Part shown: one piece after another, positions 4,953 through 58,200 of the stretch
Layout: the number at the start of each line of letters is the position of its first letter
Numbering within the stretch: position 1 is the stretch's first letter
Assembly (NCBI RefSeq): GCF_026151205.1
Contig: NC_087076.1
Location: forward strand, 186,001 to 250,000
Length of the DNA: 64,000 bases
DNA from: Bolinopsis microptera
Taxonomy: Eukaryota; Ctenophora; Tentaculata; Lobata; Bolinopsidae
Direction: 5' to 3'
Program-made: the position numbers and the translations under genes
Notes under the pieces: model-generated
Database searches by the model: none
Told to the model about the DNA's origin: nothing
What the model saw: the letters and a program-made list of their open reading frames with translations, nothing else

Positions 4953-6353
4953 TCAGCCCATATTAAGTTTACTGTTAGCAGCTAGGTTTGAAGCCTCAAT
5001 AGCTCTTTTCTGGACTTTTTTCCAAGCTTCTTCACGTTGAGCCTCTTTCCGTTTCTCTTTTTGCCGTTCAGCTTTAAAAGATAAAGTTAGTTCATCAAAC
5101 AACTGGTTATTCATTTCCATAAATGTCTTCATAACATTATATACAAGAGCAACAATTGTCTGGTTCCAATGATCCTTACTTATAAGATAAAGGGCAGGAA
5201 ACATTATGGGCATTATGATTCTACAGTGTTCTTCTATCAAACTCATTATGTACTCATTGTTCCAGAAGTAAAGAGCTCTTTCGGCGACTTGAAACTGTGG
5301 ACTTGAAACAGCTTTTGCTAACATCTTGAAAAGAGGGATGATAACCTTCTTAAACTGAGTTGGCTCTATAATGTCGAGAACTTCCTCAACTTCACCAAGT
5401 AACATCACCTCTTTTGCACTGTTTGTTTTTGGCCACAGCTTCAGCAAACCTAATATTGTTGGTTCAGTAAGAGATGGATCCTTTTCAACAAATTGCACGA
5501 TGCAGTAAGCCAACTGAGCATGATATGAAGCTATTCCCCTCGATTTATGTAGAGGTATCAAGACCTTGAAAAGAAAAAGTCTGTGTTCTTGTTTCAGTGG
5601 AACTGCAAAGCCATTTATAATGCTGCCAAGAATCTCAAGAAATTCTGCAATGCCATTACAGTTTTCCCCTTCAAATATATACCTTAAAAATATGTAGTTG
5701 ATATTTTTTCTAATGAAAGATCTGAGACCAAGAAACTTTCCATAGATTCTGTGAAGCAAGGTTTTGAGCATATCTCTTTCCCTAGGATCCTCACTATTAA
5801 ACAATGCCATAATTTGCAAAACAAACTTTTGGTCGCAATACTTTTTGCACAGTGAGGGTTGAAAATCAGCACTTTCCATGAACCTCAAAAAGTACTCATA
5901 TATAAGTTGCAGATGGGGCCAGCTGGGATCGTAGTTTGGCTCATCCTCATCATTATCAAAGTCTTCTTTCCCTTCGTCTTGGTTTGGGGGAAAGCATCTA
6001 ACAACATTACACTGCAACATTTTTATACTCTCAGGGTAGACAGCTTCAAATATAACCCCGTTGTTGCTGGCGATATAATCAATCAATTCATTTAGAGTTT
6101 GTCTTTTTTGTTCAATTCCTTTATTTTCAGGCTCAAGTGCAGTAAAATCAAAGAGAATGCAGCACTGCTGAAGCTTTTTCAGGAACAATTCATTCCGCTC
6201 TGCTGCAGATGTCTCTTTTAATGGTGGTAACAGTTGAAACTCATGATTGCTCAAAAACAAATTAAAGGATGTTGTGCTAAGACGTTTTCCTTTACTCCTC
6301 TTGGCTGATTTCTTTGTAAAAGGATCTGAAGTGGGTGGCGATGTCCCCATCAA
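4953..6353 (-). CDS. PPP2R5: PP2A regulatory subunit B56 (PPP2R5 family), intronless
   Basis: Complete 466-residue B56-type regulatory subunit of protein phosphatase 2A, which directs the PP2A A/C core to substrates. The length matches animal B56 proteins of about 460-520 residues. The HEAT-like core is unmistakable: [11 protein letters not shown] at residues 201-211 retains the His, Arg and Arg (201, 202, 211) that bind LxxIxE substrate motifs, followed by [17 protein letters not shown] (234-250) and [19 protein letters not shown] (252-270). The N-terminus is a basic, disordered tail; the C-terminus (428-450) is a charged helix rich in K, R and E. There is no intron, frameshift or internal stop. 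Animal PPP2R5 genes are normally split by introns, so this may be a retrocopy under selection or a naturally intronless paralogue. No clear poly(A) tract or target duplication was seen. It lies between foldback elements. Confidence 0.96.
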
Positions 6354-9975: not shown

Positions 9976-10905
9976 ATGCAAATGACAGAATATAGCGCTG
10001 AGTTCAAGAGACGATTGAACCGGATCGGAGAGTTGTTTAATAACAAGAAAGAAATTTATCATGATGGTATGTTGGCATACAGGTTGTTAACTCAGGCCAA
10101 CCTGACCAAAGATCAACAGATATTGATCAAAGCTGCAATGGGGACTCAAGAGTTGACAAGTAAAGCAATTGAGGAAGGTTTGAAGAGGTGTTTCGGTGAC
10201 GCTGTTTTCTGTCGTAGATCCAGACTGGAGTTAGACACAGTGAAGATCAAGGTAGAACCTGGATCGGATGTGCATTACCATAGGGGTCAGTTTGATGAAA
10301 AAGGATACTGACATCAGTGGTGATAACGGAGAATATACATTCTATCAAGGATACAATAATTGAGGACAAGGAGGAAGGAAATCGTTCTCTTCTGGCGGTT
10401 ATAACAATTACTCCAATGGCAGAGGGAGATCTGGAAATGACAGCAGACCATGGGAAAGAGACAAACAGCTCAATTCAAAAGAAAGGAATAACTCAGACTA
10501 CAAAGATGAGTTAAATGCTATCAGTCACAAAACAGGCGATGTAGCAAGATGTTCAATTTGTGATTCGAATAAGCATTTCCGGGCAGATTGTCAACATAAT
10601 CCCAATGTTAATGATGTTCGAAAGAAGGATTCGGGCTCAGTGTGTATGTATCAGTCGTGCAGGAATGGTAAAGAATCAAACAAAATTGACAATGACTACT
10701 GTGAGACAGTGCTGTTAGTCAATGAGACATTGAACAAGGTGTTGATTGACACTGGTACAACCAGTAATGTGTGTGGTGATGTTTGGTTGAACACATTCTT
10801 AGAGTCAATGCCTGAAGAGTTGAAGAAAAAGGTCAGCGAAGTCGAGAGAAACTTGAGTTTTTGTTTTGGAGACGGACACGCGATTAAATCTATCAAATGT
10901 GTTAG
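9976..10905 (+). pseudogene. copia-like gag, zinc knuckle and start of aspartic protease, interrupted
   Basis: Gag-like segment (9976-10311), a glycine/asparagine-rich linker in shifted frames, one good CCHC knuckle (C-x2-C-x4-H-x4-C in CSICDSNKHFRADC, near 10550-10590) and an aspartic-protease start with D-T-G (LIDTGTTSNVCG, near 10745). The protease then reads FCFGDGHAIKSIKCVRI and stops abruptly at the 3' tail of a LINE. It resumes at about 16485. The arrangement gag-knuckle-protease with DTG and VCG resembles invertebrate copia/GalEa-type polyproteins (inference). Several stops and frameshifts make it non-functional. Confidence 0.7.
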
Positions 10906-11364
10906 AATTAGAATTAGAATTAGAATCAAATTTACACAGCAATACAATAAGAATAAAAAATAATTTAAGAAGCTTCAATCTGCTGTGCAGGACATTCAAG
11001 TCAGTCAAAAACTGTTAGCAGAACACCCTTCTAGGGACATAAGGATATAGCATGTAAATTGTAAAACAAAATAAGTAATAAATTAATGAGTGGTAAAATA
11101 AGATATGATTTAACAGTGAACTGTGGGCATGAAGGTAACAATTAATGTTGAAAATTACATAGATGCCCACTTTGGAATTTCGTAAGTAATATTATTTACA
11201 GTTATACACAGAGAAGTATAGAACAACATTAGAATGGCAATGATAACAAATGGGAACGAATAAAGGAGATGTTTAAAGTTCTATACTTCTGAAAATAGGT
11301 CATATAACGCAGGGGGCCTTTCCACCCGACAAAAACTCCAGCACCTTAAAAATTGTTTCAGTTG

Positions 11365-14361
11365 TCACATAGCTAGAGTGTAGAAATAGTCGAAACTATT
11401 GTTTATTTCATAGGATGAGACTCCTTGAATAACATCTGACATAAATTTAGATTTCATACATTGTGAGAAATTTACACTACATTCTATAGTCCTTATGTTC
11501 TCTGGAATTGTATTCCAACATTTTGCACCTAAATATGTAAAGGTTTTGTGTGTTCTGGATTTGTGAATATAAAGGTTGCACCTCTCAGCATCACGTGATC
11601 CTCCGGATACATAAGAAAATTTACCGGTGAATGATGATGGTGCAGCCTCATTAAGAATTTTATACATATACGTTGATAGATGGAGTTGTCGTCTTAAGTG
11701 TAAGGGTAACCACTTCATATTTCGATATACATTTACTGATGGTTCCTGCCAATGAACATCCAGTGCAATTTTTGCTACTTTCTTGTATAATATATCAAGA
11801 GAATTAAGTCTGGTTTTGGCAGCCCTAGACCATATTATATCCAGGTAGTCAAATTGGGGGAGCATAAGAGCATTTACAAACATTTTTCTATATTTCAGTG
11901 GAAGAAGATTTTTCGACCTATATAATGCCCCTATTCTTTTAGCAATTTTTGATTTCACATAATCAATATGGTCTTGAAAGTTCAATAAATTGTCTATCAT
12001 GAGACCTAAATATTTTTGAGATTTAGTTTCTTCTATGAAAAGGCATTCTTTTTCCAAATCCAGAGGGATTGACAAAGTGTCCAGATTAGGATATCTATCA
12101 AATACAATGAATGAAGATTTTGCAGCATTTAGTCTCAGCTTGTTGATTCTAAGCCATTCATACACAATTTTCATATCCTTAATTACATTTTCATATATGC
12201 TTCGGGAAATGTTATCAAAATATAGTGCACTGTCATCTGCAAATAAGTAAACAGTAGATTGTGTGCAATTTCTACTGAGATCATTTATGAATAAACTAAA
12301 TAGAATTGGTCCTAATATGCTACCCTGTGGCACACCTGTTTTAACAGGGAGTGATGTGCTTACATTACCACGTATTTTGGTGTGCTGCTTTCTGTCCCCA
12401 AGGTAGCTTTTGAACCACTTTATGACAAAGCCATCAACTCCATAATACTTAAGTTTTTTCAATAAAATATTATGGCTTACTGTGTCAAAGGCCTTTTTAA
12501 TATCTAAGAATACAATTGCAGGTTTCTTCTGTGATTCCTTAGACGTAAATATTTTATCAAATAGATTAAGCATTAGAAAAGTGGTGGAATGATCTTTTCT
12601 AAATCCATACTGATTGTTGGTAAGCAGTTTATTTGTTTCAACATACTCTGTGAGCTGTTGGTTAACAAAATATTCTATGCATTTTCCAAGTAGGGGGAGT
12701 ATGGATATTGGCCGGTAGTTATTTGGATCATTAGGGTCACCAGTTTTAAGAATTGGAGTGACTGATGCAATTTTACATGCCAACGGCATTGTTCCACTTT
12801 TCATACTAAGGTTTATAATATGAGCTACTGGATCGATGATTTGGGGAATAATATACTTATATACTTTAATAGGCATGATATCGTTAATAGATTTATCTGA
12901 TGGTATACTGAGTATATATTCTTTTACTTGTTCAACAGTCACCTCTTCGAATACAGAGAGTTTACACTCTGGTGGAGGCGGCATATATTCTAGAAAGTCG
13001 TCTGAATCCTTTTCCTTAATTGATTCTTGTAATATTGTACCAACTGTGGCAAAATGCAGGTTAACTCCGTTAACATTTAAGTTGCTTGGGGAAGAGCTAC
13101 TTATTTTTCCAGGTAAGTTTGAAGCATGTTTGATAGTTTTCCAAATACCTTTCAAATCGTTTTTTGCACTTTTCACAGTAAGGTCCTGAACAATATTTGT
13201 ACGTCTGTTTTCTTTGGATAATTTTGTCACATAGTTTCTTTGGGGACGATAGTTATCCCACGAAGTAGAGCATTTCTTATGTAGTTCACTTTTTCTGCAG
13301 TTACATATTCCATTAATACACTTACACTTGAATTTGTTTAATTGTCCTAAACACTTTTTATACTTTCTGAAAAGCATCTTCTTCTTCCGTATTTCTGCCA
13401 GCAGTATTTTAGAGGGATTACAAAGAAAGTTACTATTACATTTAATCTGTTTAGGTGGACAGTAATTATCATACGATTCCTGGATGTGATGATTAAGTCC
13501 ATCTAGCGCATGGTCTACATTAGTACAGCTTAGAATATTACTGTAATTACTGCAGGATCCCAGAAAATAGCTTAAGGCTTTTAGATTGTTTAAGGAGTGG
13601 TCTCTGATAAGGACCTTCTGGAATTTACTAGCTTTATTTACTTTAAAGTCGAGAACACATTTGAGAGCTTGGTGATCTCCTATTCTATCATCAAGTACTT
13701 TACACTCTATGAAATTAGAGTAACAGTTAGTCATTACAACATCTATTGTGCTCTGCGTTATTCTACCATCTAAGTTTGCAACTCTAGTAATTCCTGTAAC
13801 AGTCTGTATCATTCCAAAGAGCTTCATTGTTATATCTAACTTTTTATAATCTAGATCAGATAAAGAGTTTTGGTTAACATTAACATCGCCAATCCATATT
13901 ACTTTCTTACCTTGAAGTTTCATCATACATTCAGTCATATAATCAAGAAAAGTATCTAGATGACAAAAGTTTTGTGATCTGTAGAAGCAGCAAATGTAAA
14001 GATTGGCGTCCTTGAGTTGTATCCATATAGCTTCGATTTTAGAAATATCAGAGTAGGTTATATCTAAATTGAGTAATTTGTGGTTAACATTTTGGTTGAT
14101 CAATATACCACACCCTCCTCTTCCTCTATCGTTAGGTCTATCACACCTTATAAAATCAAAGTTTAAGGGGAAGTTAAGTGTACTAGTGTCTATATCAGAT
14201 TTAAGGTTTGTCTCATTAATTCCAATTATGTCAAGCTTTTCGCGAAATATTAGCTCCTGTAGTTCGAGAGTTTTTGCCAGATTAGTCAGGCCACCCTGTA
14301 TATTACATAGACCAAGAGAGAGATTATCGTTTATTGAGGTACGAATAAGGTTAAACCAAAG
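11365..14361 (-). CDS. LINE ORF2: AP-like endonuclease and reverse transcriptase
   Basis: Open from just after a TAG near 14362 to 11365. The N-terminal endonuclease includes LCNIQGGL, GINETNL, IGDVNVNQ, STIDVVMTN and GDHQALKC, covering the usual catalytic blocks of APE-type endonucleases. A cysteine-rich patch (FKCKCINGICNCRKS) follows. The reverse transcriptase contains NNYRPISILPLLGK, FLDIKKAFDTVSH, GVPQGSILGPILFSLFINDL and the active site YLFADDSALYF. It nicks target DNA and copies the element RNA. Gene order and EN-RT layout fit the CR1/L2/Jockey group. The initiation codon is unclear; the frame extends about 86 codons upstream of the TTG at 14103. Confidence 0.92.
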   Translation of the reverse strand, partial: LWFNLIRTSINDNLSLGLCNIQGGLTNLAKTLELQELIFREKLDIIGINETNLKSDIDTSTLNFPLNFDFIRCDRPNDRGRGGCGILINQNVNHKLLNLDITYSDISKIEAIWIQLKDANLYICCFYRSQNFCHLDTFLDYMTECMMKLQGKKVIWIGDVNVNQNSLSDLDYKKLDITMKLFGMIQTVTGITRVANLDGRITQSTIDVVMTNCYSNFIECKVLDDRIGDHQALKCVLDFKVNKASKFQKVLIRDHSLNNLKALSYFLGSCSNYSNILSCTNVDHALDGLNHHIQESYDNYCPPKQIKCNSNFLCNPSKILLAEIRKKKMLFRKYKKCLGQLNKFKCKCINGICNCRKSELHKKCSTSWDNYRPQRNYVTKLSKENRRTNIVQDLTVKSAKNDLKGIWKTIKHASNLPGKISSSSPSNLNVNGVNLHFATVGTILQESIKEKDSDDFLEYMPPPPECKLSVFEEVTVEQVKEYILSIPSDKSINDIMPIKVYKYIIPQIIDPVAHIINLSMKSGTMPLACKIASVTPILKTGDPNDPNNYRPISILPLLGKCIEYFVNQQLTEYVETNKLLTNNQYGFRKDHSTTFLMLNLFDKIFTSKESQKKPAIVFLDIKKAFDTVSHNILLKKLKYYGVDGFVIKWFKSYLGDRKQHTKIRGNVSTSLPVKTGVPQGSILGPILFSLFINDLSRNCTQSTVYLFADDSALYFDNISRSIYENVIKDMKIVYEWLRINKLRLNAAKSSFIVFDRYPNLDTLSIPLDLEKECLFIEETKSQKYLGLMIDNLLNFQDHIDYVKSKIAKRIGALYRSKNLLPLKYRKMFVNALMLPQFDYLDIIWSRAAKTRLNSLDILYKKVAKIALDVHWQEPSVNVYRNMKWLPLHLRRQLHLSTYMYKILNEAAPSSFTGKFSYVSGGSRDAERCNLYIHKSRTHKTFTYLGAKCWNTIPENIRTIECSVNFSQCMKSKFMSDVIQGVSSYEINNSFDYFYTLAM

Positions 14362-14651
14362 CTAATGGGGAACAAATCCACATGCAGTCTCCTCAAGTAG
14401 ACTAAGTTTCAAATCGTGTCATACATATGATTTAAATTGGATTTCGGATCAGCAATCATACTGCAGTTTAATCATAAAATTTAACAGCATAAAATAGTAA
14501 CTCACTTCTGTTTGTGATAAATATAGCTTGAGAGATATAAAAACGTTAAGTTATTAGAAATTTGTGCTGATCTAACATTTTAAACCAGATAAAACAGTAA
14601 TCCTGTTATTATTCATGTTGATACCCTTGGATTATAGAATTTTAATGAAGT
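14362..14651 (-). other. ORF1-ORF2 spacer of the LINE
   Basis: About 290 bases with no open frame; presumably untranslated RNA between the two cistrons. Confidence 0.5.
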
Positions 14652-16454
14652 TTAACACAAGTGAGTTACATATTTGAGATGCTTACCAAGCCTGGCAATT
14701 CCTAACTTATTAAGGTGCACATTGTCATGGCCCCTGCCAAAATACTTGTCCTTTCTATTATAATTTAAAGTAAAGAGATTATTTTCATGTTCTGTGTTAA
14801 TGTATATTAGCCCATGCTTATAACACATATTCTCTAAGTATCGATTAAGTCCCTGCACTATAATGTTCTTACTAGTGACAGCTCTAGGCAGAATATTTAA
14901 GATATATATTTTTGCACTATTAAATTCTGCCCACAATTTTTGAACAAATTCTTCCATGTCATTGGTGGCACTGTTGAAGTTCATTGTGTTGAGGTCAATT
15001 GGATCAACACAGTTAGTACCAGTTAGTAAAACAACCTTTTTAACCTTTTCTTTGTTGAGAACTTTGAACTGACTGTCGCTAAAGAGTCTTTGGGACATTT
15101 GGATTGAGTTGGCCCCTGGGTAGAAAAATACTTTGGCCTTCTGAGATGAAGAGCTCAACAGTTTTTCATTCAGATGCCTAAACATGCTGCTGCTGATATA
15201 AACTGTGCTCACATCGTTGGGTGTCTCCTTTTCGAACAATTGTTGTCTGTTAACATGCCGCCCTGATTGATGCAGATGGGGTGGTGGAGATGTATAGGGT
15301 GGGGTTAGAGGTCGGTGCTGATAAGCACCATTCGTTTTCCTTGATGGATGAACTATAAACTCGTCTTCTTGATAAGGTACATAGCCGCTGGAGTTGGAGA
15401 TGTTTTCATATGGGTCATGGTAATTGTCATTGCACATGTTGGTTGGTGTACTTGTTAATCTTTGGACAACAGCTACAGGTTTGATCAGTCTGAATGTGAT
15501 ACTGATCCTTTTGTTTGTACAAGATGGTTGAGTACAGATTTCATGTCTGTAATGAAGCTGGGATTTTTTAGACATGATACAAACATCCCCATGCTTTAGA
15601 TCTAGGGCAGACACCACTTTTCCTGTTTGAATTTCTGTGAACTGCATCGTCCTAGAGGCACCCAGAGAAACTGTAACAATATAAGAGTTTTCATCGATGC
15701 ATTCTTCATTATCACTATGGATAGGCATGCATTCTGTCCCAGTACTGTAGTAGTTTACGAGAGCACTGTTGTAAACATAATCCGGGAGTAACACATCAAG
15801 ATATGAACAGATAGCAGCCAGATAGGACTGATGTGGTATCTCCTTCGCCTCGTGACTTCCCCCATTATACACATATGGGAAGTCCCCAAAGTAAGCTGTT
15901 TTCCTATTTTGAAACTGGTGGCTAAAATCCAATTCTCTCAGGAAGATGTCTAAGGAGAATTTTTGAAACGGTGCCTGATCAATGAGTTCAACAGGTGGTA
16001 TGATAATGTCAGGGCTTTCGTCATTTACACTTAAGGCCACACTAGATATGGGTGTTACATCTATTTCAGCATAATACTTGCCACTCCATGGATTGACAGA
16101 TCCTGTACTCCCACTGATTTGATTTTCTGTGTTGTTGGAAATGATAGAATCTGGTGCTTCAATGATGCCATCACTATTGATTAGCATGAAAGATTCAGGC
16201 ACCTCGCATTCACTGTCATATTCAATCTGATCGTTTTCAAATTCTGTCTGAACTGCAACATCTGAACACCTATCCAGGACAGCCCGATAATCTATTGACT
16301 GATTGGTACTTTGATGTAACAACGTACCATTAATCTCTGCTATAGTCTGAGAAGTTTGAACAATGTCTTCTAGGATGATCACTTTCCGCTCGAGAAACTT
16401 GACATGAGATTTGAGTGCAGTACAGTTTTTGCATTTTTGATCACGTTGTGTCAT
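14652..16454 (-). CDS. LINE ORF1: coiled coil, AlkB-type dioxygenase, SGNH esterase
   Basis: Intact 600-residue protein. Residues 8-35 (CKNC then a heptad-rich stretch) look like a short coiled coil. Residues about 160-325 form an AlkB-type 2-oxoglutarate/Fe(II) dioxygenase: ALVNYYSTG (231-239), the iron ligands H246-x-D248 (PIHSDNE) and H304 (YRHEI), TVSLGASRTMQF (261-272), HGD (288-290) and the closing R316-x5-R322 box (KRISITFR) that binds 2-oxoglutarate. All key residues are present. AlkB enzymes remove alkyl groups from nucleic acid bases. A proline-rich linker (380-395) leads to an SGNH-hydrolase-like domain (415-600) with YISSSMF, PGANS, LLTGTNC and a D577-x-x-H580 pair; esterase domains are known in CR1/L2 ORF1. 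A role for the AlkB domain, such as protecting element RNA or cDNA, is inference. Confidence 0.88.
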   Translation of the reverse strand: MTQRDQKCKNCTALKSHVKFLERKVIILEDIVQTSQTIAEINGTLLHQSTNQSIDYRAVLDRCSDVAVQTEFENDQIEYDSECEVPESFMLINSDGIIEAPDSIISNNTENQISGSTGSVNPWSGKYYAEIDVTPISSVALSVNDESPDIIIPPVELIDQAPFQKFSLDIFLRELDFSHQFQNRKTAYFGDFPYVYNGGSHEAKEIPHQSYLAAICSYLDVLLPDYVYNSALVNYYSTGTECMPIHSDNEECIDENSYIVTVSLGASRTMQFTEIQTGKVVSALDLKHGDVCIMSKKSQLHYRHEICTQPSCTNKRISITFRLIKPVAVVQRLTSTPTNMCNDNYHDPYENISNSSGYVPYQEDEFIVHPSRKTNGAYQHRPLTPPYTSPPPHLHQSGRHVNRQQLFEKETPNDVSTVYISSSMFRHLNEKLLSSSSQKAKVFFYPGANSIQMSQRLFSDSQFKVLNKEKVKKVVLLTGTNCVDPIDLNTMNFNSATNDMEEFVQKLWAEFNSAKIYILNILPRAVTSKNIIVQGLNRYLENMCYKHGLIYINTEHENNLFTLNYNRKDKYFGRGHDNVHLNKLGIARLGKHLKYVTHLC

Positions 16455-16484
16455 GTTACCCGTTGTGTCATGTTACCCGTTAAG

Positions 16485-17250
16485 TTGTGTAACAGAGATT
16501 TCATGTTAGAAACATTTGTGGTTCCAGGAGAATTACCCTTTTTGTTTTCTAGATGTAGCATGAAGCAACTGGGGGTATCATTAGACATAGAGAATGATCA
16601 GATTATGATTGGCGGAGAACGGTAACAACTGAAAGTGACCAAATCAGGTCATTATGTGGCAGATATCATGTTATGGGAAAATATGAAATCAGAGAAATAT
16701 ACCATTGAACAAACTGGTAGGGAAGAGAGTGTAAGGAAAGAGGAGATTGTTGATAGTGATAGTGACAGTGAAGATGAATTCTGTCCGAATGAATCAGAGG
16801 AAGTAAGCAATGAACCATCAGCAGAAGGAGTGGAAGTTTCGAGTGAAACTGAAACTTCAATAGAAGAATCTGGTAATGTAGAGACCAGTAGTGAATAAGT
16901 GAAGTCAGAAAGTGTCGGTGATGAAAATAGAGACACAAGTGAGCCTGATGAATTTCAGAGTGCTTCTCGTCTGATGAGAATCAAGACTGGGTAGATGTTG
17001 TAGTCAAGAGGAATAAGGTATTAGACTTTAAGAGTGAGGATGTCATTAGGTATAACTCAGCAGATCATACCAACGATGTGTGGCAGAGAGCAAGTGTAAT
17101 TGGACCTGGATGGAAATAAAATTCTGTAAGGAAGGAAGACATCAACGTCCGGAACTTGGTGAAAGAACCAGAAGGTACAACAATTCAATTGCGTCTCAGT
17201 GAGTGTCAAGTGCAGAAAAAAATCACATGATTCTCTTAACACAAAGTCTA
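16485..17250 (+). pseudogene. copia-like protease C-terminus and acidic linker
   Basis: Continues the protease split by the LINE: RDFMLETFVVPGELPFLFSR-like sequence (about 16495-16560), MKQLGVSLDIENDQIMIGG, a TAA at 16623, then KSGHYVADIMLWEN and a strongly acidic stretch (DSDSDSEDEF onward) to a stop near 16898. Fragments such as VLDFKSEDVIRYNS and VRNLVKEPEGTTIQL in shifted frames near 17015-17200 resemble the post-integrase region of copia-type polyproteins. No integrase core or reverse transcriptase can be found before the right LTR, so the element is non-autonomous. Confidence 0.6.
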
Positions 17251-20975: not shown

Positions 20976-23381
20976 TTGCTATATTATGGCAAAGTCTCAG
21001 CAGCAACCAGTCTCATAAATCGTCAAAGTGGTGGACTGTTGGATGTTGATGAAACGGTTATTGGACAGCTAAAGGAAAAGCATCCCTCTGCTATGAATGC
21101 AGCAGATGAAATTTTGATCACAGGTAACAAAGTGGCAGTCGAAGAAGTTATCTTTGAAGCCATCGATTCAATGTTAGTGAAAAAGGCTGCTAAGCTGACA
21201 TCAGGATCAGGTGGACCAACGCTAGTAGATTCAGAGTGCTGGCAGCACATCCTGTGTTGTAGTGCATTTAGTAAATCCCAAGAGCTTGTCGCTGAAGCAA
21301 TTGCCAGATTAGCCAGGCGTGTATGTACTGAAGATGTAGATTTCAAATCAATAGCAGTGCTCACAGCTGGTAGGCTTGTCCCCTTAGATAAATGTCCAGG
21401 CCTAAGACCAATTGGTATTGGTGAGATCCTGAGACGGATTATTGGGAAGTGTGTGATGATGGTATTAAAAAAAGATGTTCAGAAGAATGCTGGACCACTT
21501 CAAACATGTGCAGGTCATGAAGGGGGGATCGAGGCAGCAATACATGCTATGGCAGAGGTGCACGATGATGAGGACACGGAAGCCATTTTGTTAGTGGATG
21601 CTTCCAACGCATTCAACGCTCTCAATAGGACTGCTGCTACCAACAACATGCAGTATGTTTGCCCACCACTTGCTAAATATTTTGAGAACACCTACAGAGA
21701 ACCAACAGACCTTTATGTGGCAAACAGCAAGGGAGTGATCATCAAGAGCTGCGAAGGTTTCACTCAAGGAGACAATATTGCCACTGGTGGATATGCTCTT
21801 AGCACCAAGCCACTTATCGACCGCCTGAGAAACATCATCAAACAGGTGTGGTTTGCCGATGATAGTGCTGCTGGAGGGAAATTGGAGGCAGTGTATAAGT
21901 GGTGGAAGGAGTTGCTCCAAGTTGGACCTAAGTATGGTTATTTTCCTAACCCATCTAAAAGCATTCTAGTAGTGAAGGACCCTCAGATGATCAACCAGGC
22001 CAAGGCATTGTTTGGAGAGTTCAATATGCAAATAACATCAGGCACAAGGCATCTTGGTGCAGTACTTGGCAATACAGGTGTCAAAGATCAGTACATTGCC
22101 GATAAGGTCCAAGGGTGGTGCGAAGACATCAAGATGCTAGCTGATATTACAGAATCTGAGCCTCAAGCAGCCTATTCAGCCTACATCTCTGGCATACAAC
22201 ACCGATGGAAGTTTGTTCAAAGGACTGTTCCTCATATCTCTGAAGCCATGGAGCCGCTAGAACATGAAATAAGACAAAAGCTTCTGCCAAAGATGCTGGG
22301 CAGGGAGATTTCAGACTTAGAGAGGGACGTGTTAAGTCTACCAATAAGATTGGGAGGATTGGGCATTGGTAAACCCCACGAGGAATGCCAGTCTGAGTAC
22401 ACAGCTTCCAAGCTACTCACCACAGAGCTTACAAAGGCAATAGTGGACCAACAGGAAGTTTACACTGCATCCAGTAACCTCACCAAATCAGGGAAAGAAA
22501 TGATAAAAAATTTGAAGAATTCCGAGCTCCAAGCCAAGTTTAACGCTATAGCTGAAAGATGTGGCACCTCCTCTAAGAGAGCACTACTAACAGCAAGAGA
22601 AAAGGGAGCGTCCAGTTGGCTTAACACATTGCCACTTCAGCAGTATGGCTACACTCTGAACAAAGAGGAGTTTTGAGACAGTGTCTGCTTACGCTACAGT
22701 TGGTGGATACCAAACACTCCCATCACCTGTGGATGTGGGAAAACAAGTGATCTTGACCACCTTCTCACCTGTAAGCTAGGGGGCTACGTGATAATGACCC
22801 ACAACAACATCAGAGACACAATGGCAAATCTACTTCGTGAGGTATGTCATGATGTAAAAGTTGAACCCCAGCTACAGAAGGTAAATGAGGGTGACTGCCT
22901 CAACCCCAAGACTATAACAGGTGACCAAGCTCGGCTTGATGTATCTGCTAGAGGAGTTTGGACTCCATTTGATAAGACCTTTCTTGACATAAGGGTTTCA
23001 CACCCCAATTGCTTATCAAACAGGACAAAAACTCTTCAAGAAGTATACGAAGAGAACGAGAAGGAGAAGAAGGACGAGTACTTGGAAAGAGTGTTGAATG
23101 TGGAGAAGGCTACCTTCACCCCGGCTGTATTCCTCACATCTGGAGGAATGTCTAAAGAGTGTAAGCAGTTCGTCAACAGAGTAGCAGACCTCATTGCAAG
23201 AAAAAGGAAGGAAAGGTACTGCGATGTAGTAAGACACGTGAGAACTAGGATAAGATTTGCAATGTTGAGAACAACTCTTATTGCTCTACGAGGGTACCGA
23301 GGAAAGAAGGTGGACACCAAACTTGAGATTCAGCTATCAGAAGTTTCATACAACCTCATCCCTGCCCCTATAATGGAGTAG
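20976..23381 (+). pseudogene. RLE-type LINE: reverse transcriptase and endonuclease, one stop
   Basis: Reverse transcriptase (20976-22676) with VDASNAFNALNR (motif A), EGFTQGDNIATGGYAL (motif B) and FADDSAAGG (motif C). A single in-frame TGA at 22674-22676 interrupts the frame; it then continues through the knuckle CGCGKTSDLDHLLTC and the nuclease core GDQARLDVSARGVW / FLDIRVSHP to 23381. Apart from that stop the frame is open over 2.4 kb. The N-terminal DNA-binding part usual for RLE-type elements is missing or upstream in the neighbouring copy. The element would nick its target through the C-terminal nuclease. It sits 58 bases after another copy's C-terminus, in the same orientation. Confidence 0.85.
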
Positions 23382-26250: not shown

Positions 26251-28911
26251 TCATTCAGTATTTTTCTTCGGGAACCTCCGTTCATCGACCTTATTTAAAA
26301 ACCGTCCAATGTCTCTAATAGTTGTTGAGTCGTCGAAGATTTCTCCCGGTTCTTCTCTCATTACTAACAGGTCCCTCGTTCGTTGATGCAGGTTTTTGCG
26401 TAGGTCTTCGTATAGGGGGCATTCGTAGAGGATGTGATGCTCATCTTCTATCACTGGATAGGCCCCTGGTAGCTCATAGAGAAGATCTAACAAGTCATCG
26501 TCACTTGAGCAGCAATGTCTGCAGGCCCGATGTTTTATGTTAAACCGCTTTTTGCCGTAGCGACCAGTTTCAACGTTAAAGCGGTGGGAGCTGCTTCTGA
26601 ATTGCGCGATCTTCTTTGAGCAGTTAGGTTTAAGATCAAGGGCTAGATACGTCTCTTGAGCAAACTTTCTCTTCACAAAGTTGTAGAATGATAGTTTTCT
26701 GTTAGATGTCCTTTCTGTTTCCCATGAGTTTATAAACCACTTTTGCAAACTCTTTCTAATCTGGCTTGGTCTTAATCCTTGGTTTCTCTCTGATGCCTCG
26801 ATGGTTTCTTGCATCTGCTCGAGAGTGGAGAACCAGCTCAGGTTTAGGGTCGCCTGCTCTTCGAAAGCGTGTCTAGCAAAGCAGTCACGACCGTCTACCA
26901 CCATTTGTTCAAGTCTTTCTTTGTAGTTAAACACTTGCTTTGATAGCGTGATGCCTAGTGGATGCCTGCCTGTGTCACCCCATATCGCAGCATTGGATGT
27001 TGACTTCCTCACCCCTAAGGTCCATTTCAAAAGAGACAGATGAAAGTTCTCTAGAGGGTCCCTGGCAATGAGTGTACACACGTTTCCTGTTTCTGGTGTG
27101 GTGCTCGTGTTTGTGGGGAAGTTGCGGAACAGAGCTGTGCTTGGCAGCCACACTTGGCAACCATACGACACCACAGGTACAATAAGTGTATCATATAGCT
27201 TGAACAGTATAGATTTCCTGATGTGGCGGGTATCAATGTAGCTTTTCAAAGAGAAATAACTTCTTAATGCTTTTTGCCTCAGCTTTTGTTGTGTTAGCTT
27301 AAGTGATCCGCTCAGAGTAAATGTAATGCCAAGGTAACAGTACTCTCTCCCGGAGGGGATCTGTTGTTCTCCCAGTTTGAACTCATGACTTTCCTTCAGA
27401 TGCCTTCCTGTTGGGTTAAACACAAGGACTGAAGTTTTTCCAATGTTTACTGTCAGGCCCCATTCTGAGCAGTAATTGTTTAGGACATCAAGCATTTGTT
27501 GAAGACTGTGTTTGTTGAGGGCTAGAAGGACAAGGTCGTCTGCCCATAGCAGATGAGTTATATCTGTATCATTTAGGACAGGGACTTTCACTCCTTCGAT
27601 GTTGTTGAGATCATGTGAAAGCTGGTGGACAAAGCATTTAAACAGTTCAGGGGACATGGGGTGTCCTTGCTCAGTACCACATATTATGTCGATCTTCTGT
27701 GACAGCTTGTCTAGTAGCTTCACTTTGGCTGAGGAGTTTGAGTACATGAACTTAATGCACTCAAAGAATCTCCCTTGAATACCCATTTTCCACAACTTGT
27801 ATAGGAGTGCCTCACGACAGATGGAATCAAACGCTTTGGCATAATCGACAAAGCATGTGTATAGCCTTTGGCGTTTCTTGGTGACATACTTTTCCACGCA
27901 GGTTGAAAGTGTGAAAATGTGGTCTGCTGTCTGTGCGTCTTTACAGAAACCTAGTTGGTTGGCTGTATCAGGATCACATTGATCACGGAATGATATCAAT
28001 CTTTTCAGCAATATGCTTGCAAAGAGCTTTCCGAGATTGCTCGCTACAGCGATGGCTCTGTAGTTGTTTGGATCATAGATATCACCTTTTTTGTGTAGTG
28101 GTGTAACTACTGATGAAGTCCATGGGTAAATTGATAGGCTTAGGCAGTGGTTGAAGAGGTTGAGGACTGCTTTGAGCATGGATCGTGTTGAGGCTTTGAA
28201 GAATTCATTAGAAATTAGATCTTCGGAAACTGCCTTTCCTTTTTTAGTGGCCTTAATGCAAGCACACAGCTCTTCCATCTTTATATCTTGATCCAAAAGC
28301 TTGGTCAGGTCGTCACAAATGTTGTTTTTCTGCATCTTTGACTGTAGCTCTGCGATCTTAGAGTCTTTGATGTTCTTTTTGCCGTAAAGTTCACCGAAGA
28401 ACTTGCAAAAGTTGATCATATCGAAGGCATCAAGACTGGTTGCAGGCGATTTTGTATTTTTAAGAGCTTTGAAGGATTTCCAGCAGATGTTGTTCCCTGT
28501 TTCTATGTCCTTGCAAAGCTTCTCAAAGAATTCTGATCGCTTATGTCTGATCATCTTTCTATATTGTCGCCGAGTGTCGTAATAAGAGTCCCTGAGGAGC
28601 TTGTCCAATGGGGATCTTCCATACTTTTTTGCTAGAATGTTGAGTGTCCTCTTAAGACGGATACATTCACTGTCAAACCATGCCATTTTTGGCTTCATTC
28701 GACTCTTCTTTTTGGTGCTACCATATTTATTATTTCTCGGCCCTTTCTGACGACTTGAGGCGTTTTTTCGGGGCATCACTTGTTCAGCAACCTGATGATA
28801 CAGCTCAACAATTTGGTTGTTAAGGTTAAAAACGTCTTGAGGGGTTTTGCATGAACTTGTAGCCAGAGTTTCCGTCTTTTCCTTTATACTAGGGTCACCC
28901 ATAGCTAGCAA
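26251..28911 (-). pseudogene. LINE reverse transcriptase (APE-type element)
   Basis: 886-codon open frame. A basic N-terminal segment is followed by reverse-transcriptase motifs: DPNNYRAIAVASNLGKLF, FVDYAKAFDSICREALLYKL, GTEQGHPMSPELFKCF and the active site LLWADDLVLLALNK. The C-terminus has a zinc-binding-like pattern (ACRHCCSS ... DEHHILYECPLYEDLR). The endonuclease lies upstream in another frame, so a frameshift near 28975 has separated the two; the reverse transcriptase itself looks intact. Clade left open (Jockey/Rex-like group possible). Confidence 0.88.
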
Positions 28912-36143: not shown

Positions 36144-39100
36144 GTAAATCATCTCACCAACCTCAACCTCAGCACTGATAAAAGGTAAGACATCACACCA
36201 ACCTCAACCTCAGCACTGATAAAAGGTAAATCATCTCACCAACCTCAACCTCAGCACTGATAAAAGGTAAATCATCTCACCAACCTCAACCTCAGCACTG
36301 ATAAAAGGTAAATCATCTCACCAACCTTAACCTCAGCACTGAAACAAGAATTGCGCCCGTTATGCCATAGGGGGACGCTAGATTTCCATCCACTGCTTTT
36401 TCAAGTCCAAGATTAATATAGTATAGTACTATGTTTTACAGTATAAACTGAGATCTAAAGCCCTTAAACGAAATCTAAATCATTCCACATCCACTTCATC
36501 GACCAGGCGATCCCAGTAGTGGAGATCGCGCATTCCTGATATTCTGGCGGTGAATGCTTTCTGTACACTCTCCAGTTCTTGGATATCGCTGATTTTTGAG
36601 GGATGCCATAATGGACAGCAATATTCAATCAGACTTCGAACCATTGATTTGTATAGCGTCAGCATGATGGAGTGAGATCGTGTGTGAAATACACTGACAA
36701 CCCATGATGCTTTTTGGCGAGCTTTATCTGCAATGGCTCGTATGTGAGGGGACCAAGAGAGATCACTTGACACTATGACGCCTAAATCCCTGAGCTGATG
36801 TATTGGCTCAAGTGTAGTGTCTTTGGAAACTGAGTATTGATAATGTTCAACCACAAATGGAAGCTCAGATAGTACATATTGGTGGTTGAATTTGTGACAC
36901 ATGTACTCAAATTTGTCTTTGTGAAGGGCCATATTATTTCTTTCAGACCAATCAATGACATTTTGCAGATCTTTTTGACGGAGCTTGACGTCATGCTCTG
37001 ATTTGATAGCAATGGATATTCGAGTGTCATCAGCAAAAAAAAACATCGAATTATAGAGTGCATGATACAATGTTCAATATCATTGATAAAAATCAAGAAA
37101 AGGATCGGCTCCAAAACCGTACCTTGTGGAACTCCGCTGATTATCAGTGCAAGGATGGACAGATTCCATAGAGTTGGAGCTTTCTCAGTAGAAATTTGTG
37201 ATCTACTTTATCGAAAGCCTTGGCATAGTCGAGGTATATTGAATCAAAATCTGAATTGTTGCTCAGAGAATCCAAAACGTCATCAAAATGGTGGAGAAGT
37301 TGAGTAAGGCAACTCCGGCCAGATCTAAAACCGTGCTGCTTACTATATATGAGGTTATTGATCTCCAAATAGTTTACCAGCTTTTTTCTTATCACCCTCT
37401 CTTTAACCACATGAGAGGTGAGTGATATAGGTCGGTAGTTAGCTGGTTTGGCTCGACTATCCCTCTTGTGGAGAGGAAATACGTGTGAGAACTTATAGAC
37501 CTCCCCAGTAACTAAAGAGCGGGACCAGATGATGTGCATTGGTTCTGCTAGGGCTTTCTTGCAGTTCTTGAGAAGGGTGACTGGAATTTCGTCAGGACCT
37601 GATGCAGCATTAGGTTTGATGTCTTCAATGGCCTTAATGATTTCGTCCACGGAGAAATTCAGCATATCGTCAGTAAAAGGATGCTTGATTGGAGGGGGAC
37701 TGAAAGAAGCAGAGTCGATCCGAGTTTTCGAAGGATCACTGAATACTGACAAGAACTGATTCTGCAAGAGGTTGGCAATGTCTTTTGGATTTGATTTGAT
37801 GGCACCGTTTCCATCAAAAAGCATGCTGATGTTGCTTTTCTTCTTCGAAAAGTTCTTAGCGTAACTATAGAAATACTTGGGATTTTCTTTTACCTTGCTT
37901 TCGGCTTGCTGTTCACGGTACAGGAGATCCTGGTGGATTGCATCACGAATATCCATATGAGCAAGAGCAAGTTTCCGGTTCAAAGATTCAATCTGTGTGG
38001 GAGGGCTATGTGGAATACTTTTTGCAACCTCTAGCTGGGTTTGAAGCTTTCGTTTTCTGCGAGAGGGGATGCGCACAGATGAGCGAGTTTGGGTTTTGGG
38101 AGGGATCTTCTTCGGACAGCCAATCTGTAGAGTAATAAGAGTGAATAGCTCTGGAAAATCCTCTTTGTCGCATAGGTTGATGAGTTGAGCCCAGTCAACA
38201 GATGAGAGCATGTCATTGATCGATGAAAAATCTGCTTTATTAAAGTCTAAGCTTCTAAACGAAGAACCCATAGCAACCCATAGTAACAACATATCTTGTT
38301 ATTACGGCTACAGACCTTCCCTTACCGGATGTAGTGATGGAGGTGAGTCTGTATAGAGAGGTATACAGTATATACATATAGCTCTATTCTTCTTTAGGTC
38401 AGTGACCAGCTGCTCGCTCTTCACTGGATCTATCAGGACATCTTTTTAGGTTTTAACCAGCCTTAGTCTCCCTGTTTTCATCAGAACCTGATAAACAGCT
38501 GTTTAGCTGAGGACTTAGTCTCCCTGTTTTCATCAGAACCTGATAAACAGCTGTTTAGCTGAGGACTTAGTCTCCCTGTTTTCATCAGAACCTGATAAAC
38601 AGCTGTTTAGCTGAGGACTTAGTCTCCCTGTTTTCATCAGAACCTGATAAACAGCTGTTTAGCTGAGGACGGTGACTGGTCGGATAGCTGTACCTGGTCC
38701 AGCAGGTTCCTCTGTAGCCACACTCTTTATCACATTCTTCAACGTTTTGCTGTTGCAGACTGTACCACTTGCACTGTTCTTTTGCTGCACTGTAGCTCTG
38801 TGTCTCAGATGTATAAACTAATCGCACTGATTATAACACCAGAAGCGTGGAGTTATACGCGAATCTAACTGCATGTATAATACGATTACACCAGTTATTG
38901 CACTCGGCTGCGCCTCGTGAAATAATCGAACTCAGCTTCGCCTCGTGCGATTATCGTATAACTTTGCACTCGGCTGCGCGTCGTGCAATTAATAGTGTAA
39001 TCGCATTATACGCAGTTAGATTAGCGTATATAATTATACGTTAACCCAATATTTCAGTAGAATTGTTTGTTTGTTTGTTTGTTTGTTTGTTTGTTTTCAA

Positions 39101-42100
39101 GAGCAACTTGCCACTTATGTCCAGCTCATTATATAAAATTATATTATTAAGAAACTGTTTACACCATTAAAATATTCAAAACCCCTAAAAGAAATCAAGT
39201 CATCCTAAAATGGTGATCAGTACAGATCAAGACAGCTAGAGTTAAAATTTGTTTCTCCAAGCAACTCTATCATCGGCTAATATCTTAAGCTTATTAAGAT
39301 CATTCAAAGAGTTAAGTTTTAAACCTCTACGGATCAAATCATTCACAATAATCTTGAACAAATTCTTACGATGCGCACCGACGCGCCCTTTACAGTTTGT
39401 TGTGACAGCAAACTTTAACGCTAATGCAGCGGGGGAGTCATCAGCACTACGCAAGATATGACCTAGGAGCTTCCACCTTGCTTTAGGGACACGATCTGAT
39501 AGCTTAACTGAGTTACATCTTAGGTATAAGTTTGCATTGGATATTGTTCCATGAGGCCAATAAATGTTCAGTAATGATCTAAGGTATTTTCTATGGCAAA
39601 TGTCTAGTTTTTCTAGTGACTTTGCAGTAGGACACCAACTACTGCAATTGTACATGATGATTGATACAATTTGGGCTTCGTATACTGCTATCTTTCTGGT
39701 AACGGAGATATTCTGCTGAGACCAGATCTTGGTGAACTTATAGAAGGCATTGTTCCCAGCAATGCATCGAGCAGCTATATCACTTTCACTACACAACAAT
39801 GACCCAAGAATCTTACTCTTCCGCCAATCTTCATTTCCACGTAACATGGTATCATCACGACCAGGGATTGTTTCTCCAACAGGAGCGAGGAAAACATGGG
39901 TAAATTCTGTTTTCTCTGTGTTAATGAACAGGTTAAACTCCTTGAAGACTTCCTTAGCTATTGGTAGGATAGCTTCTAAGGATTCTTTTTCCACGTTCAT
40001 GAAGTTACAATCATCTGAATACGCTGACTCCAGTGGCATACCTTCTTTTGAAATAGGGGGATTGGGTGTGTGTGGGGGAGACTCTGCTAGTCGATGGCGT
40101 AGTTCTATAAGAGCTCCTGCTAGGACAAGAGTGAAAAGCTTGCCGGAGAGACTGTCACCTTGAAAGGACCCAAGAAGACTCTCGAATACAGCAGATAGTT
40201 CTCCTTCCACTCTGACCTTGAGCATGGTGTTGGTTAAGAGGAGTCTTACTAGCCTGAGGTCGTCGTCTGTGCATCCAGCTTTGACAAGAAGGTCAAGTAT
40301 AGTCTGGCGTTTGATTGTGTCAAATGCTCGAGACATATCTATGCCCATCTTGTGATACTGGAAGTGTTTACGCGTGACAACCGATATCAACATCCGCTCA
40401 GCCCACACTAGATCACCACAACTTCTACCATGTTTGTACCCCGCCTGCGTGCTACCAGTGAAAGCATCAACTTTGTCTTCAATTCTCTTCAGTACAATCA
40501 TGGATAATATCTTACGAGCACCATTTGATAGACATAGAGGTCGTAGACTAGTGACAGGACCAGCTGGTTTGCGAGGTTTCGGTAAGGGGGTGATGATGGC
40601 TTCACCTATAACATCAGGAAATGAATTGGTCTCCAATGCGCTATTGATGATCTCGGCATATTTTGACCAGAATTTTGTACCAGCATTTTTCAACCACTCG
40701 TTGTAGACTTTATCTGGACCAGTGGCTTTGTTGTTCTTGAGAGATTGGGCGGCTTTCTTTACTTCATCACATGTGATGGGTATGTCTAGGCAGCGTCCAT
40801 CCCCTATAAATGCTTGAAGTGGTTCATCCTCACACGTGAACTGCTTTTCGTAGTAGTCTCTGATCACTTGAGCTTTACCAGCATCTGTGGCAACAAAGTT
40901 ACCTTCTTCATTGTGGACACTGATAGTAGATTTGGGCTTAGTGTCAGCTAGAGTACGCACAGCTTCAAACATCTGCCTTGTGTCATCTGTTGACATGATG
41001 GTTCGAGCGATGTCATCGGCACGTGTGTCAGCAAGGTTCTTGAGATGCTTACGGATGTCTTTCTCTAACCTGTTGATCCTTGTACGGACTTGAGTTCTGT
41101 CAGCAACTTGGTTGTTACAGTTAAGTGCAGCTTGCAGGGTTTGTCTCTCTTTTACAAGGGCTTCAACAGTTGAGTCACTACTGAAGTTACGGTTTCTGGA
41201 GCGTGGTAGTGTCCCGATTACTTCATCAGCAGTTGTCTTAAGGACATCCATCAGGTTAGTGAGATCATCATTAGGGTTTGATGTTACCTGAGAGTTGTTG
41301 ACTTTCTGTTCGACTGAAAGTTGGTATTTGACTTTGGTGGGAAGGTCAGTGGTGAGCAGGGAGTTGTTATATCTCTTAACTACTGAACTTATCTTTTTTG
41401 TAGGAAAGATTTTGTAGTAGGGGGCTAGTTTGATCTTACAAGCAACGAGTCTGTGGTCTGAGTTAGTAGCAAGACCGCCATATGCTCTACAATCTTGGAA
41501 CATGAATCTGCTGCGTGTTCTGCACACAACACAAAATTTCACGAAGATCATGCGTGCGCAATTACATTAAAACGTATGATAGTAAACGAAGACCTTTATA
41601 TTGCGATTTGTTATTTCCTAACACTATTACTAATTACTATTTCTATTTTAAGCACCAGCCACCAGATAATAATTTAAAGGCGTCCACGGACGCCTGGACG
41701 CCCTCAATAGCCGCCTCTGTTCTGCACAGAATATAATCTAATTGGGCAAAGACTGGACGAGTAAGTTTGCTACCTTTAGGGCGACCTTTGGCAGAAATAC
41801 ACATAGAGAAAGTAGTTCGATGTCTACAAGGATGATCAAAATAGGTATTGGTAGCAAACAGTTTGTTTAAGCACATGAAGTTTAATAAATGTTCACCGTT
41901 GAAATTCCTTGTACCCATTCCAAACTTGCCCATATACTCTGTTACACCATACTGATAGTCTAAAGGAGATAAGGTTCCCAACTTACTGTTGAGATCACCA
42001 CAAACAAACAATTCATGAGATGCAGGAACTGAAATAGCATGGGTGAGTTCTCTGTAGAACTTTCTAAGAAGGGCAGGGTTTCCTTCTGCTTTAGGATTAG

Positions 42101-55200: not shown

Positions 55201-58200
55201 AGACAACATTAAGACAACATTAAAGCAACAATAAGACAACAATAAGACAACAATAAGACAAGATTAAGACAACAAACACCGATAAGACAACAAAATAGGA
55301 TAAAATATTAAGACAACATTAAGACAACATTAAGACAACATTAAGACAACAAACTCAATTAAGACAACATTAAGACAACATTAAGACAACAAACTCATTT
55401 AAGACAACATTAAAACAACAAATTCTTTAAAACAACATTAAGACAACAAACTCGTTTAAGACTACATTAATGCAACATGTTTAGAATATGTAATATACGG
55501 CCGGGATTTCATTGCCGCAGTTAAAAAGGGTAGGATTATTACACACACAGATTTTTTCCGTTCACACCCTTTTGTAAAAAGGCAATAGTGAAAGGTTACG
55601 AATGGAGGTTTTTGCAGAAAAACGTGGATTTTGGAGATTGCAGTAGGTGGGTCTGAGTATGTCGTGTTCCTTGCTTCCGTTCGTTACCATGCAACGAAAA
55701 GGCCGCACGCGTGCGCGAGGATTGCTTGCGGAGATGTGATGTATAGATAGCCTTTGGTCAATGAATGCGCGGCGCGAGTGTATTTTAATGCGCGAAAAGT
55801 GGCATGCAACGTATGTATTGATGTGTACACTGTACACGAGTATAGTTTACTTTTGCTTACAGTTTTTTGCATTTGAATTGAATTTCAAATGTTTCCCCTA
55901 TTTAATGCATAACTTATCAATATTATTATTATGAGGTGAGCTGATTGGAGCTTATTCTTAAAGTTATAGTGAATGGAAATCTAGCGTCCGCCAAAACGAA
56001 ACAACGGGCGCAATTCTTGTTAAATTATCTGTTCAAATACTTTGGACTGCTAGTTAAAAGTCGGAAATTTAAATTGATGCTTAATTGGGGGGGGGGAGGA
56101 GGGGTCACTGGAGCTGCTGGAGGAGGGGTTACTGGAGCTGCGTGAGGAGATCACTTCTCCTGGATCGCATCATCACCATGGCTCACGTGACTTTAAATGA
56201 TATCTGGCTCACTCAACTTTTTACGATGCATCACATGTCAAATCACCTCAGATAATAATGTAACATCTTGTTAGCGATTCTCAGATCGCAGCTTGTAATT
56301 GTACAGTTCACGTCATGACCAGATCGGGTGGTATTAATGAGGGCCGTTGTTCGTGTTCTGCTCACGTGACAAATAATATAAATAGAGGCCATCAAACCAA
56401 CATTTTATCTAACGATACAACATGAACTCCCTTCCCTCCTACGAAGAGCTAAGACGCGGATCACTATCATCGGAAACGGAATGTCTACAGTACTGCTTAG
56501 ATATCGGAATGCTGCGACCTTTCCAAACTTGTGAAGAGTGCAACAACTTTATGACCTTGAAGAAATGCCCAACGAGCAAGTACACAGACGGCTACTGCTG
56601 GCAGTGTTCAGACACTTCTTCAGACATCGACCACTTCTGCTCAGTGAGAACCGGGAGTATCCTCCACAAACGCAAGCTACCCTTCTCCGTATTCCTCCAC
56701 ATCATCTGGCTGTTCTGCAACCGACTGAGCGTCTGCGACGTAGCACGGATCATAACCATCAGCACCGGCTGTGTACGGTCCATCTTCTCCTCGATCCGAA
56801 ATTGCATGCTTGAAGACCTGTTCGACAACGGTGCACGTAGAAAGATTGGTGGGGTCGGCTGTATAGTGGAGATTGACGAATCCAAATTCGGTAAACGAAA
56901 ATATAACAGAGGTCGACGTGTAGTCGGAAAATGGGTGCTGGGTGGGTTCTGTAGGACTACTGGCGAATGCTTCTTAGTGGAGTGTACCGGCAATCGACGC
57001 GATCACAACACCCTAATCACACTCATCAAGGAGCACGTTCTACCGGGTACAACTATTCTCACCGACAAGTGGAAAGGTTATAACGCCATGCAACACCACG
57101 GATTTCCTCATCAAGTTGTCAACCATAGTCGAGGATTTGTGGAACCGGTCACTGGTGTTCACACCAACAGCTGCGAAGGGATGTGGTTCCACGCTAAGAA
57201 CCACATGAGAAGAGGAACCGGTCGTACCCGAACGGATTCAGCAGCCATGACTGTATCCCTGTCAGAATTTATGTGGTGTAAGCGATACGGACTGACAAGA
57301 GACAACGCCTCCGTGAGGAAAGCCTTCAACCAAGATATCCCAGCCCTATTCAGAAGAATTTTTGATTAATTTATTGCTCTGTAAATTTGTATTACCTGAT
57401 AAATAATGAGACCTAATTATTTCATTTTCAGAGTTTAAGTCACAATTTCGTATTACTCTAACTCAGTTGATGAAGTAAAATATAATTTGACAAAGTAAAA
57501 TATATTCGAAGAAATAGTATTATACTGTTATACATAATTTGTTGTCTTAAACGAATTTGTTGCTTTAATGTTGCCTTAATGTTGCCTTAATGTTGTCTTA
57601 ATGTTGTCTTATCGTTTGTTGTCTTATTGGTGTTTGTTGCGTTAATGTTGTCTTAAAACATTCTAAGTATGGGGTTCAGTTCCTTAGGAAGTATCTTAAT
57701 GACTTAATTGACACCACTAAGCAGTTATTTCCCGCTGCAATTATAATTATCCAATGTTGTCTTCCTATTAAATGTTTATATTCCTACATAGCAAAGAATG
57801 TTCTAGATTTTAATAATCTACTTAAAGACTTATGCCTAAATAATAATTGCGTGTTCTTAGACTGTTTCTCAGTCTTTTTAACTCGAGACTTTAGATCATG
57901 TAATGAACTTCTATACCATGATTGGCTTCATCTCAACATGAGAGGAGTAGGTTTACTGTCCACTTCTCCACTTGGCTTAAGTTTTTTGTAAACGAACACA
58001 GTTTTGACAGGGTTGTAAATAATCTTCTGGGAATTTAAATCTTTGATCTTTTCTTTCATTTAATATTTTGATTAAGACGTTGCGCCTAAAATTAAAACTC
58101 AAACAAATCTCTGATTTAATCTTTTTCTAAATTTTATGCCTCCTATTTCAGGTACATTCGGTCACTGCCCATTTTCCCATATGTTAGACAATGAATCGTT

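Follow-up and report, generated by a model that had tools for sequence, protein, structure and literature searches.

LINE ORF1 proteins are known for RNA binding. The closest described systems are the Type IV (esterase) ORF1 proteins of CR1/L2 elements, e.g. zebrafish ZfL2-1, in which the same coil is followed by an SGNH domain in ORF1 while endonuclease and reverse transcriptase (RT) are encoded in ORF2; as in the LINE described here, ZfL2-1 has a short direct repeat at the insertion (5 bp; excerpt of PMC4245944) and a 3′ tail of short units. PDB entry 4c1b ('ORF1-encoded protein') was matched weakly by the profile of the present ORF1 family (E 0.0086). AlkB is not mentioned in the available portions of two papers on esterase ORF1s (PMC3905857, PMC4120745), whereas here an AlkB domain lies between coil and esterase; in one of them, as far as the excerpts go, none of the esterase ORF1s was credited with a known structural domain for RNA binding, and the esterase was described in 2013 as standing alone among LINE ORF1 proteins in being an enzyme (PMC3905857). 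A retrotransposon with an acquired AlkB-type demethylase has likewise been described in Phalaenopsis orchids (PMC9289625, available part), but that Ty3/Gypsy element is a plant LTR element with an m6A-demethylase-like AlkB in a separate extra ORF, whereas here an ALKBH2/3-like AlkB is found inside ORF1 of an animal non-LTR element. In bdelloids, ORFs for a GDSL esterase or a DEDDy exonuclease have been captured by LTR as well as Penelope-like elements, so by more than one retroelement class, and the accessible text on these elements does not mention AlkB (PMC5408684). Human ALKBH3 and ALKBH2 share the fold, the ligands and the Tyr143 equivalent with the present domain and differ as stand-alone repair enzymes. 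Viral AlkB domains sit in an RNA-virus context, unlike that of a LINE, and we know of no coil or esterase beside them. RNA repair for genome integrity has been postulated for the AlkB domains of Alphaflexiviridae, Betaflexiviridae and Closteroviridae (as told in the available part of PMC9289625). Among the top-ranked full-text literature matches, a scope that leaves most subscription papers and Repbase outside, no report of AlkB in a LINE ORF1 was found, in keeping with an earlier note on this DNA, which had known of no described ORF1 joining an esterase to AlkB. Judged by these partly available sources, esterase ORF1s (PMC3905857, PMC4120745) and AlkB in orchid Gypsy (PMC9289625) are already known, and AlkB in a LINE ORF1 appears to be new.

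The window analysed here is a stretch of 64,000 nucleotides from the ctenophore Bolinopsis microptera. ORF1 (600 aa; open frame, Pfam and blastn against siblings) occupies 14652–16454 on the minus strand, exactly where an uninterrupted frame had been noted before; a plus-strand reading of this interval was rejected, its translation being full of stops. The protein consists of a coil, an ALKBH2/3-like AlkB domain with all ligands and an SGNH domain with all catalytic residues in one chain. AlphaFold2 predicted a helix at residues 11–48 (16311–16424, minus), and we infer from this prediction and from other LINE ORF1s that it is the short coiled coil claimed earlier. A CxxC motif precedes it (residues 8–11, window 16422–16433, minus); of 121 rows, 63 have Cys at one of its two positions and 66 at the other, and the motif may contribute one half of a zinc site. 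Phosphoribosyltransferase matches of residues 2–72 (NCBIfam, best 8e-4) were far below cut-off and were rejected as chance matches of the coil. The SGNH hydrolase domain (residues 412–600; 14655–15221, minus) was delimited by Pfam, profile search, AlphaFold2 (block-mean pLDDT 84–97), fold comparison and conserved residues. Its D577-x-x-H580 pair was found as the earlier note had it, and the nucleophile S423, the glycine G447 and the oxyanion Asn N481, which that note had missed, complete the catalytic set. In the profile searches proposed there, the AlkB profile PF13532 scored above its cut-off and PF13472 (Lipase_GDSL_2; E 6.9e-6, 27.1 bits) below its curated cut-off of 32.9. A coil and an esterase upstream of ORF2 are as in Type IV ORF1s, which have no further structural domain; because an AlkB domain is present, this ORF1 represents a new sub-type and not a plain Type IV member.

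The LINE copy (family A) extends over 10903–16447 on the minus strand, as determined by blastn against the sibling L036, with a few bases ambiguous at either end: window positions 16447 to 10902 align with L036, in which position 477 is the 5′ end common to other siblings. It is 5′-truncated, about 209 nt short of its full-length siblings (approximately 5.73 kb), so that its true start is gone, which the earlier note had overlooked; the siblings carry about 40 extra N-terminal ORF1 residues (637–639 aa from the first methionine). The part homologous to siblings begins near 16447, which is five bases after the ORF1 ATG (16454–16452). This ATG and the first codons are target-derived and not the element's own, because the ATG sits in a 17-bp duplicated piece of target outside the sibling homology. 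At the 5′ junction the target forms two tandem copies of the 17-bp unit (TGTGTCATGTTACCCGT; 16447–16480, plus; repeat D17 in register 16444–16477, and flank reading), the first of which provides the ATG. TGTGT flanks the insertion on either side (flanks read by eye), with the target-site duplication on the element's 3′ side at 10898–10902 (plus). The 3′ tail of repeated ATTCTA units (10903–10927, minus; sequence reading) adjoins target sequence and is also present in siblings L032, L033, L036, L037 and L038. With the first ~209 nt missing and sibling frames intact, the window therefore holds a truncated copy, and intact frames lie elsewhere in the genome. A plus-strand frame is split by the LINE (10640–10902, left part ...SIKCV; 16464–16622, right part ...LPVKLCNRDFMLETFVVPGELPFLFS); the split gene appeared protease-like by eye, and Pfam gave no convincing match for its left part.

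ORF2 is an open frame of 998 aa (11365–14361, minus) containing both an endonuclease (PF03372, 6.6e-6, 26.5 bits against a cut-off of 24.5) and a reverse transcriptase (PF00078, 1.2e-39, above cut-off), as in LINEs with an apurinic-type endonuclease. Tail and short duplication fit the CR1/L2 (Jockey superfamily) clade but do not define it. In the window the first in-frame ATG of ORF2 comes no earlier than residue 141 (window 14361–14310), and the same was seen in all ten fetched family A/B copies with that stretch, including intact frames (starts were read in the window copy and in L031–L033, L036–L039 and L041–L043); by ungapped count, an ATT codon stands in families A/B where the relatives P0124 and P0127 have the ORF2 ATG. 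Three copies of family C likewise have no ATG before CNMQGGL. The ORF2 start is likely non-AUG, or ORF2 is translated in another way. Elsewhere in the window, an open frame at 4956–6353 (minus; PF01603, 1e-171, whole profile) encodes a protein phosphatase 2A B56 regulatory subunit; it is intronless over 466 residues and either a retrocopy or a single-exon gene. RVT_1 frames of other elements lie at 26254–28911, 37147–38292 and 39245–41551 (all minus) and 59389–61650 (plus), with a fifth, weak match below cut-off at 20976–22673 (plus), and an ISXO2-like transposase domain frame at 56422–57366 (plus; PF12762, 2.4e-12).

The AlkB-type 2OG-Fe(II) dioxygenase domain comprises residues 150–328 (15471–16007, minus; Pfam, profile and fold comparison, AlphaFold2). 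PF13532 (2OG-FeII_Oxy_2) matched residues 204–322 (E 4.9e-23; score 82.8 bits, cut-off 31.2), AlphaFold2 block-mean pLDDT was 90–97 (82 in the last block), and the domain has the double-stranded beta-helix fold. Iron ligands H246, D248 and H304 and the 2-oxoglutarate-side arginines R316 and R322 were all at the residues given in the earlier note, are invariant in 32 homologs of A1, and are accompanied by the further conserved residues Y196 and E250, which align with ALKBH3 positions. Y196, aligned with ALKBH3 Tyr143, is present in every one of the 121 rows except one, which has a gap. Variation was seen at N234, whose ALKBH3 counterpart is an Asn that we take to contact 2-oxoglutarate: in the 121 rows T occurs 47 times, N 43, H 24, S 4 and Q 2, and one row has a gap. 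Profile matches ranked ALKBH3 first, then ALKBH2, then E. coli AlkB, so that by similarity the domain is closer to ALKBH2/ALKBH3 than to other solved AlkB proteins; identity to human ALKBH3/ALKBH2 is 20–26% over the aligned domain. Fold comparison also put ALKBH2/ALKBH3 nearest, the closest structures being DNA-bound ALKBH2 and ALKBH3. ALKBH5 and FTO chains were absent from the sequence matches and from the best 50 PDB fold matches of each of two comparisons, the latter a limited list that decides nothing. In the sources available in part, Tyr143 of ALKBH3 anchors the methylated base, and the substrates of ALKBH3 are m1A and m3C (PMC10816986). The earlier note had named alkyl damage and m6A-type marks as substrates; since the domain resembles the m1A/m3C repair enzymes ALKBH3 and ALKBH2 rather than m6A erasers, and no ALKBH5 or FTO was among the sequence matches, the m6A part appears less likely.

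The best overall explanation, with a probability of roughly one half, is that a particle-borne AlkB clears methyl groups for copying of the element. Its parts differ in strength: the domain is very probably a catalytic dioxygenase, its substrate, judged by similarity, is probably of the m1A/m3C type rather than m6A, and the element's own RNA or cDNA is somewhat favoured as its target over host RNA or DNA. ORF1p would multimerise via its coil and coat the element RNA, from which AlkB would oxidatively strip Watson–Crick-face methyl groups (m1A, m3C); or AlkB may act on single-stranded cDNA or target DNA exposed in target-primed reverse transcription. Such methyl groups block reverse transcriptases; with an eraser packaged alongside, ORF2p would be able to copy its template over the full length. 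Beside the RT, a particle-borne AlkB would act as AlkB does in tRNA sequencing, which it facilitates as a tool (excerpt of PMC7968990). The SGNH part may have the role proposed for the LINE esterase elsewhere (lipid or membrane binding, ester hydrolysis).

Two other substrate assignments were weighed. An m6A (or DNA 6mA) eraser that hides element RNA or DNA from methylation-based host control, as proposed for the orchid Gypsy element, would find a precedent in the m6A-demethylase-like AlkB ORF of that element, which demethylates in vitro (PMC9289625, in the part available), and in E. coli AlkB, which by PDB titles was crystallised on m6A DNA, so that the AlkB class can contact m6A; it is unlikely here, as sequence and fold go with ALKBH3/ALKBH2 and the conserved residues E250 and Y196 have their counterparts in ALKBH3. 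A point against the best explanation itself is that mammalian L1 is aided by m6A and suppressed by ALKBH5 (PMC7873242, excerpt), so that a LINE does not always gain from demethylation. Repair at integration of alkyl damage in single-stranded DNA, be it nascent cDNA or the displaced target strand, instead of action on RNA, is given an equally low chance: the DNA-bound nearest structures speak for it, as does the single-stranded DNA that target-primed reverse transcription is known to expose, but ORF1p normally coats RNA, and the data do not separate RNA from DNA substrates.

Conservation was assessed in homologs and in genomic copies. All five AlkB ligands were kept in 118 of 119 homologs with letters there (119 of 120 listed), S423, G447, N481, D577 and H580 in 116 of 118 with letters, and all ten residues in 114 of the 120 listed, counts that are conditional on the homologs having been collected through similarity searches with a query that itself bears AlkB. 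AlkB and SGNH showed mean pairwise identities of 43% and 42%, the linkers one of 21%. In the 49 genomic loci searched (two copies are each represented by two overlapping loci), HDHRR was intact in 48 of the 48 covering it and SGNDH in 45 of 46 (N to D in L020). The strictest selection count used 21 copies from top protein matches, a choice favouring few amino-acid changes, and gave 13 synonymous and 2 non-synonymous variants in AlkB (omega ~0.05) and 16 and 10 in SGNH (omega 0.21); coil and linkers were not significantly off neutral. A wider set of 14 A, 14 B and 20 C rows (window copy left out; 13 A rows for SGNH) gave a weaker AlkB signal of 0.20 (34:21 synonymous:non-synonymous, p 2.8e-9; A 9:2, B 15:14, C 10:5) and an SGNH omega of 0.27 (38:32; C alone 7:8, p 0.054). 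Omega is raised by neutral changes in new insertions and lowered by picking copies through protein similarity. Frame-breaking indels occurred in AlkB in 2/14 A rows and in SGNH in 2/20 C rows. Selection on the ligands, which the earlier note had suspected from their retention, is thus borne out. That the AlkB fold is a nucleic-acid-binding module replacing an RRM, with catalysis irrelevant, would fill a gap, because the esterase ORF1s of Repbase are said to have neither an RRM nor any other structural domain for RNA binding (PMC3905857, available text), but is improbable given that iron and 2-oxoglutarate ligands are retained at this frequency while the linkers have diverged. Selection on an intact AlkB suggests that the element, while copying itself, strips its own RNA or DNA of chemical marks or of damage.

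Copies were sought with the ORF1 protein in the 264.65-Mb assembly, and at least 102 stretches matched, some of them two pieces of one copy; stops were present in 6 of the 102. Family A comprises the window copy and eight full-length siblings (99% identity, no stops), family B 14 full-length members (58–59% identity, frames of 608–619 aa) and family C 30 AlkB stretches (49–53% identity), 20 of them within frames of 630–632 aa. Twenty copies were fetched (8 A, 5 B, 7 C); an ORF1 frame with AlkB was present in all, in 17 it is followed by an ORF2 frame of 350 aa or more, and in nine the ORF2 frame reaches at least 996 codons. Copies lacking the domain, or neutral decay of its ligand residues, had been named beforehand as grounds for refutation; the copies keep AlkB, and the ligand residues show no decay. 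Among protein sequences, 182 relatives were found at E 1e-3 or better, with PF13532 in 119 of the best 120 of the 182, and Mnemiopsis leidyi contributed five of the best 120 and two more from the SGNH search (P0014, P0046, P0063, P0071, P0105, P0243, P0244). A quick tree joined family A with family B (support 92) and set C apart in a second group (100). ORF2 relatives ranged from 98% down to 48% identity among the matches listed, and a scan of viral contigs gave 111 pattern matches, none confirmed, and hence no relative. That the fusion arose by accident in a single copy, or belongs to a host gene nearby, and has no role in the element might be read from the truncated, startless window copy but can practically be set aside, contradicted by eight siblings at 99%, two more families of the same architecture, 182 relatives and purifying selection. 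AlkB is a shared, selected part of a large, diverged ORF1 family, and its identity and selection in a LINE ORF1 are virtually certain. Of what the earlier note had read here, the LINE ORF1, the AlkB–SGNH fusion (upheld by Pfam, conservation across homologs, fold and selection) and the selected ligands stood, and m6A-type marks became the less likely substrate.

AlkB-less relatives were looked for with the SGNH part. PF13532 was lacking in 11 of 17 matches, and several of those read begin inside a frame or are fragment-like gene models. P0105 was rejected as a gene model skipping part of AlkB that otherwise nearly matches P0071; P0243 and P0244, without all or part of AlkB, match P0014 in their flanks and probably owe the gap to faulty gene models; P0242 and P0249 both begin inside the frame and look like fragments. 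In P0251 (381 aa) AlkB is absent while coil and SGNH remain (aligned to P0061 at 7–116 and 311–542); AlkB can therefore be lost, which counts against its necessity.

In two A–B pairs (L036 vs L041, L032 vs L043), 250-base windows were 93–100% identical through ORF2 and 36–75% through ORF1. The shared sequence starts at ATTCGTACCTCAATAAACG, the very start of ORF2, so that the breakpoint lies in the first ORF2 codons, and AlkB is carried by both partners. In the simplest reading of these alignments, ORF1 and spacer of one family would recently have been replaced by another AlkB–SGNH ORF1. A Mantel test on nine ORF1/ORF2 pairs, eight of them paired indirectly (8 matches vs 0–4 at shifted offsets), gave r 0.76 for AlkB with SGNH, 0.40 for AlkB with ORF2 (p 0.03) and 0.32 for SGNH with ORF2 (p 0.046); because some pairings may be chance, this is a hint of ORF1 exchange and no more.

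Tentatively, and at somewhat less than even odds, these elements may represent a widespread old lineage of animal LINEs in which a demethylase in each particle would clear RT-blocking methyls or host marks from the RNA, and whole AlkB–SGNH ORF1s would pass between families as cassettes. Several copies have intact ORF1 and ORF2 frames, which makes direct testing possible. If true, the particle would hold a second, nucleic-acid-modifying enzyme with which some LINEs would be editing or repairing their own template, and RNA modification and alkylation repair would be tied to retrotransposition in animals.
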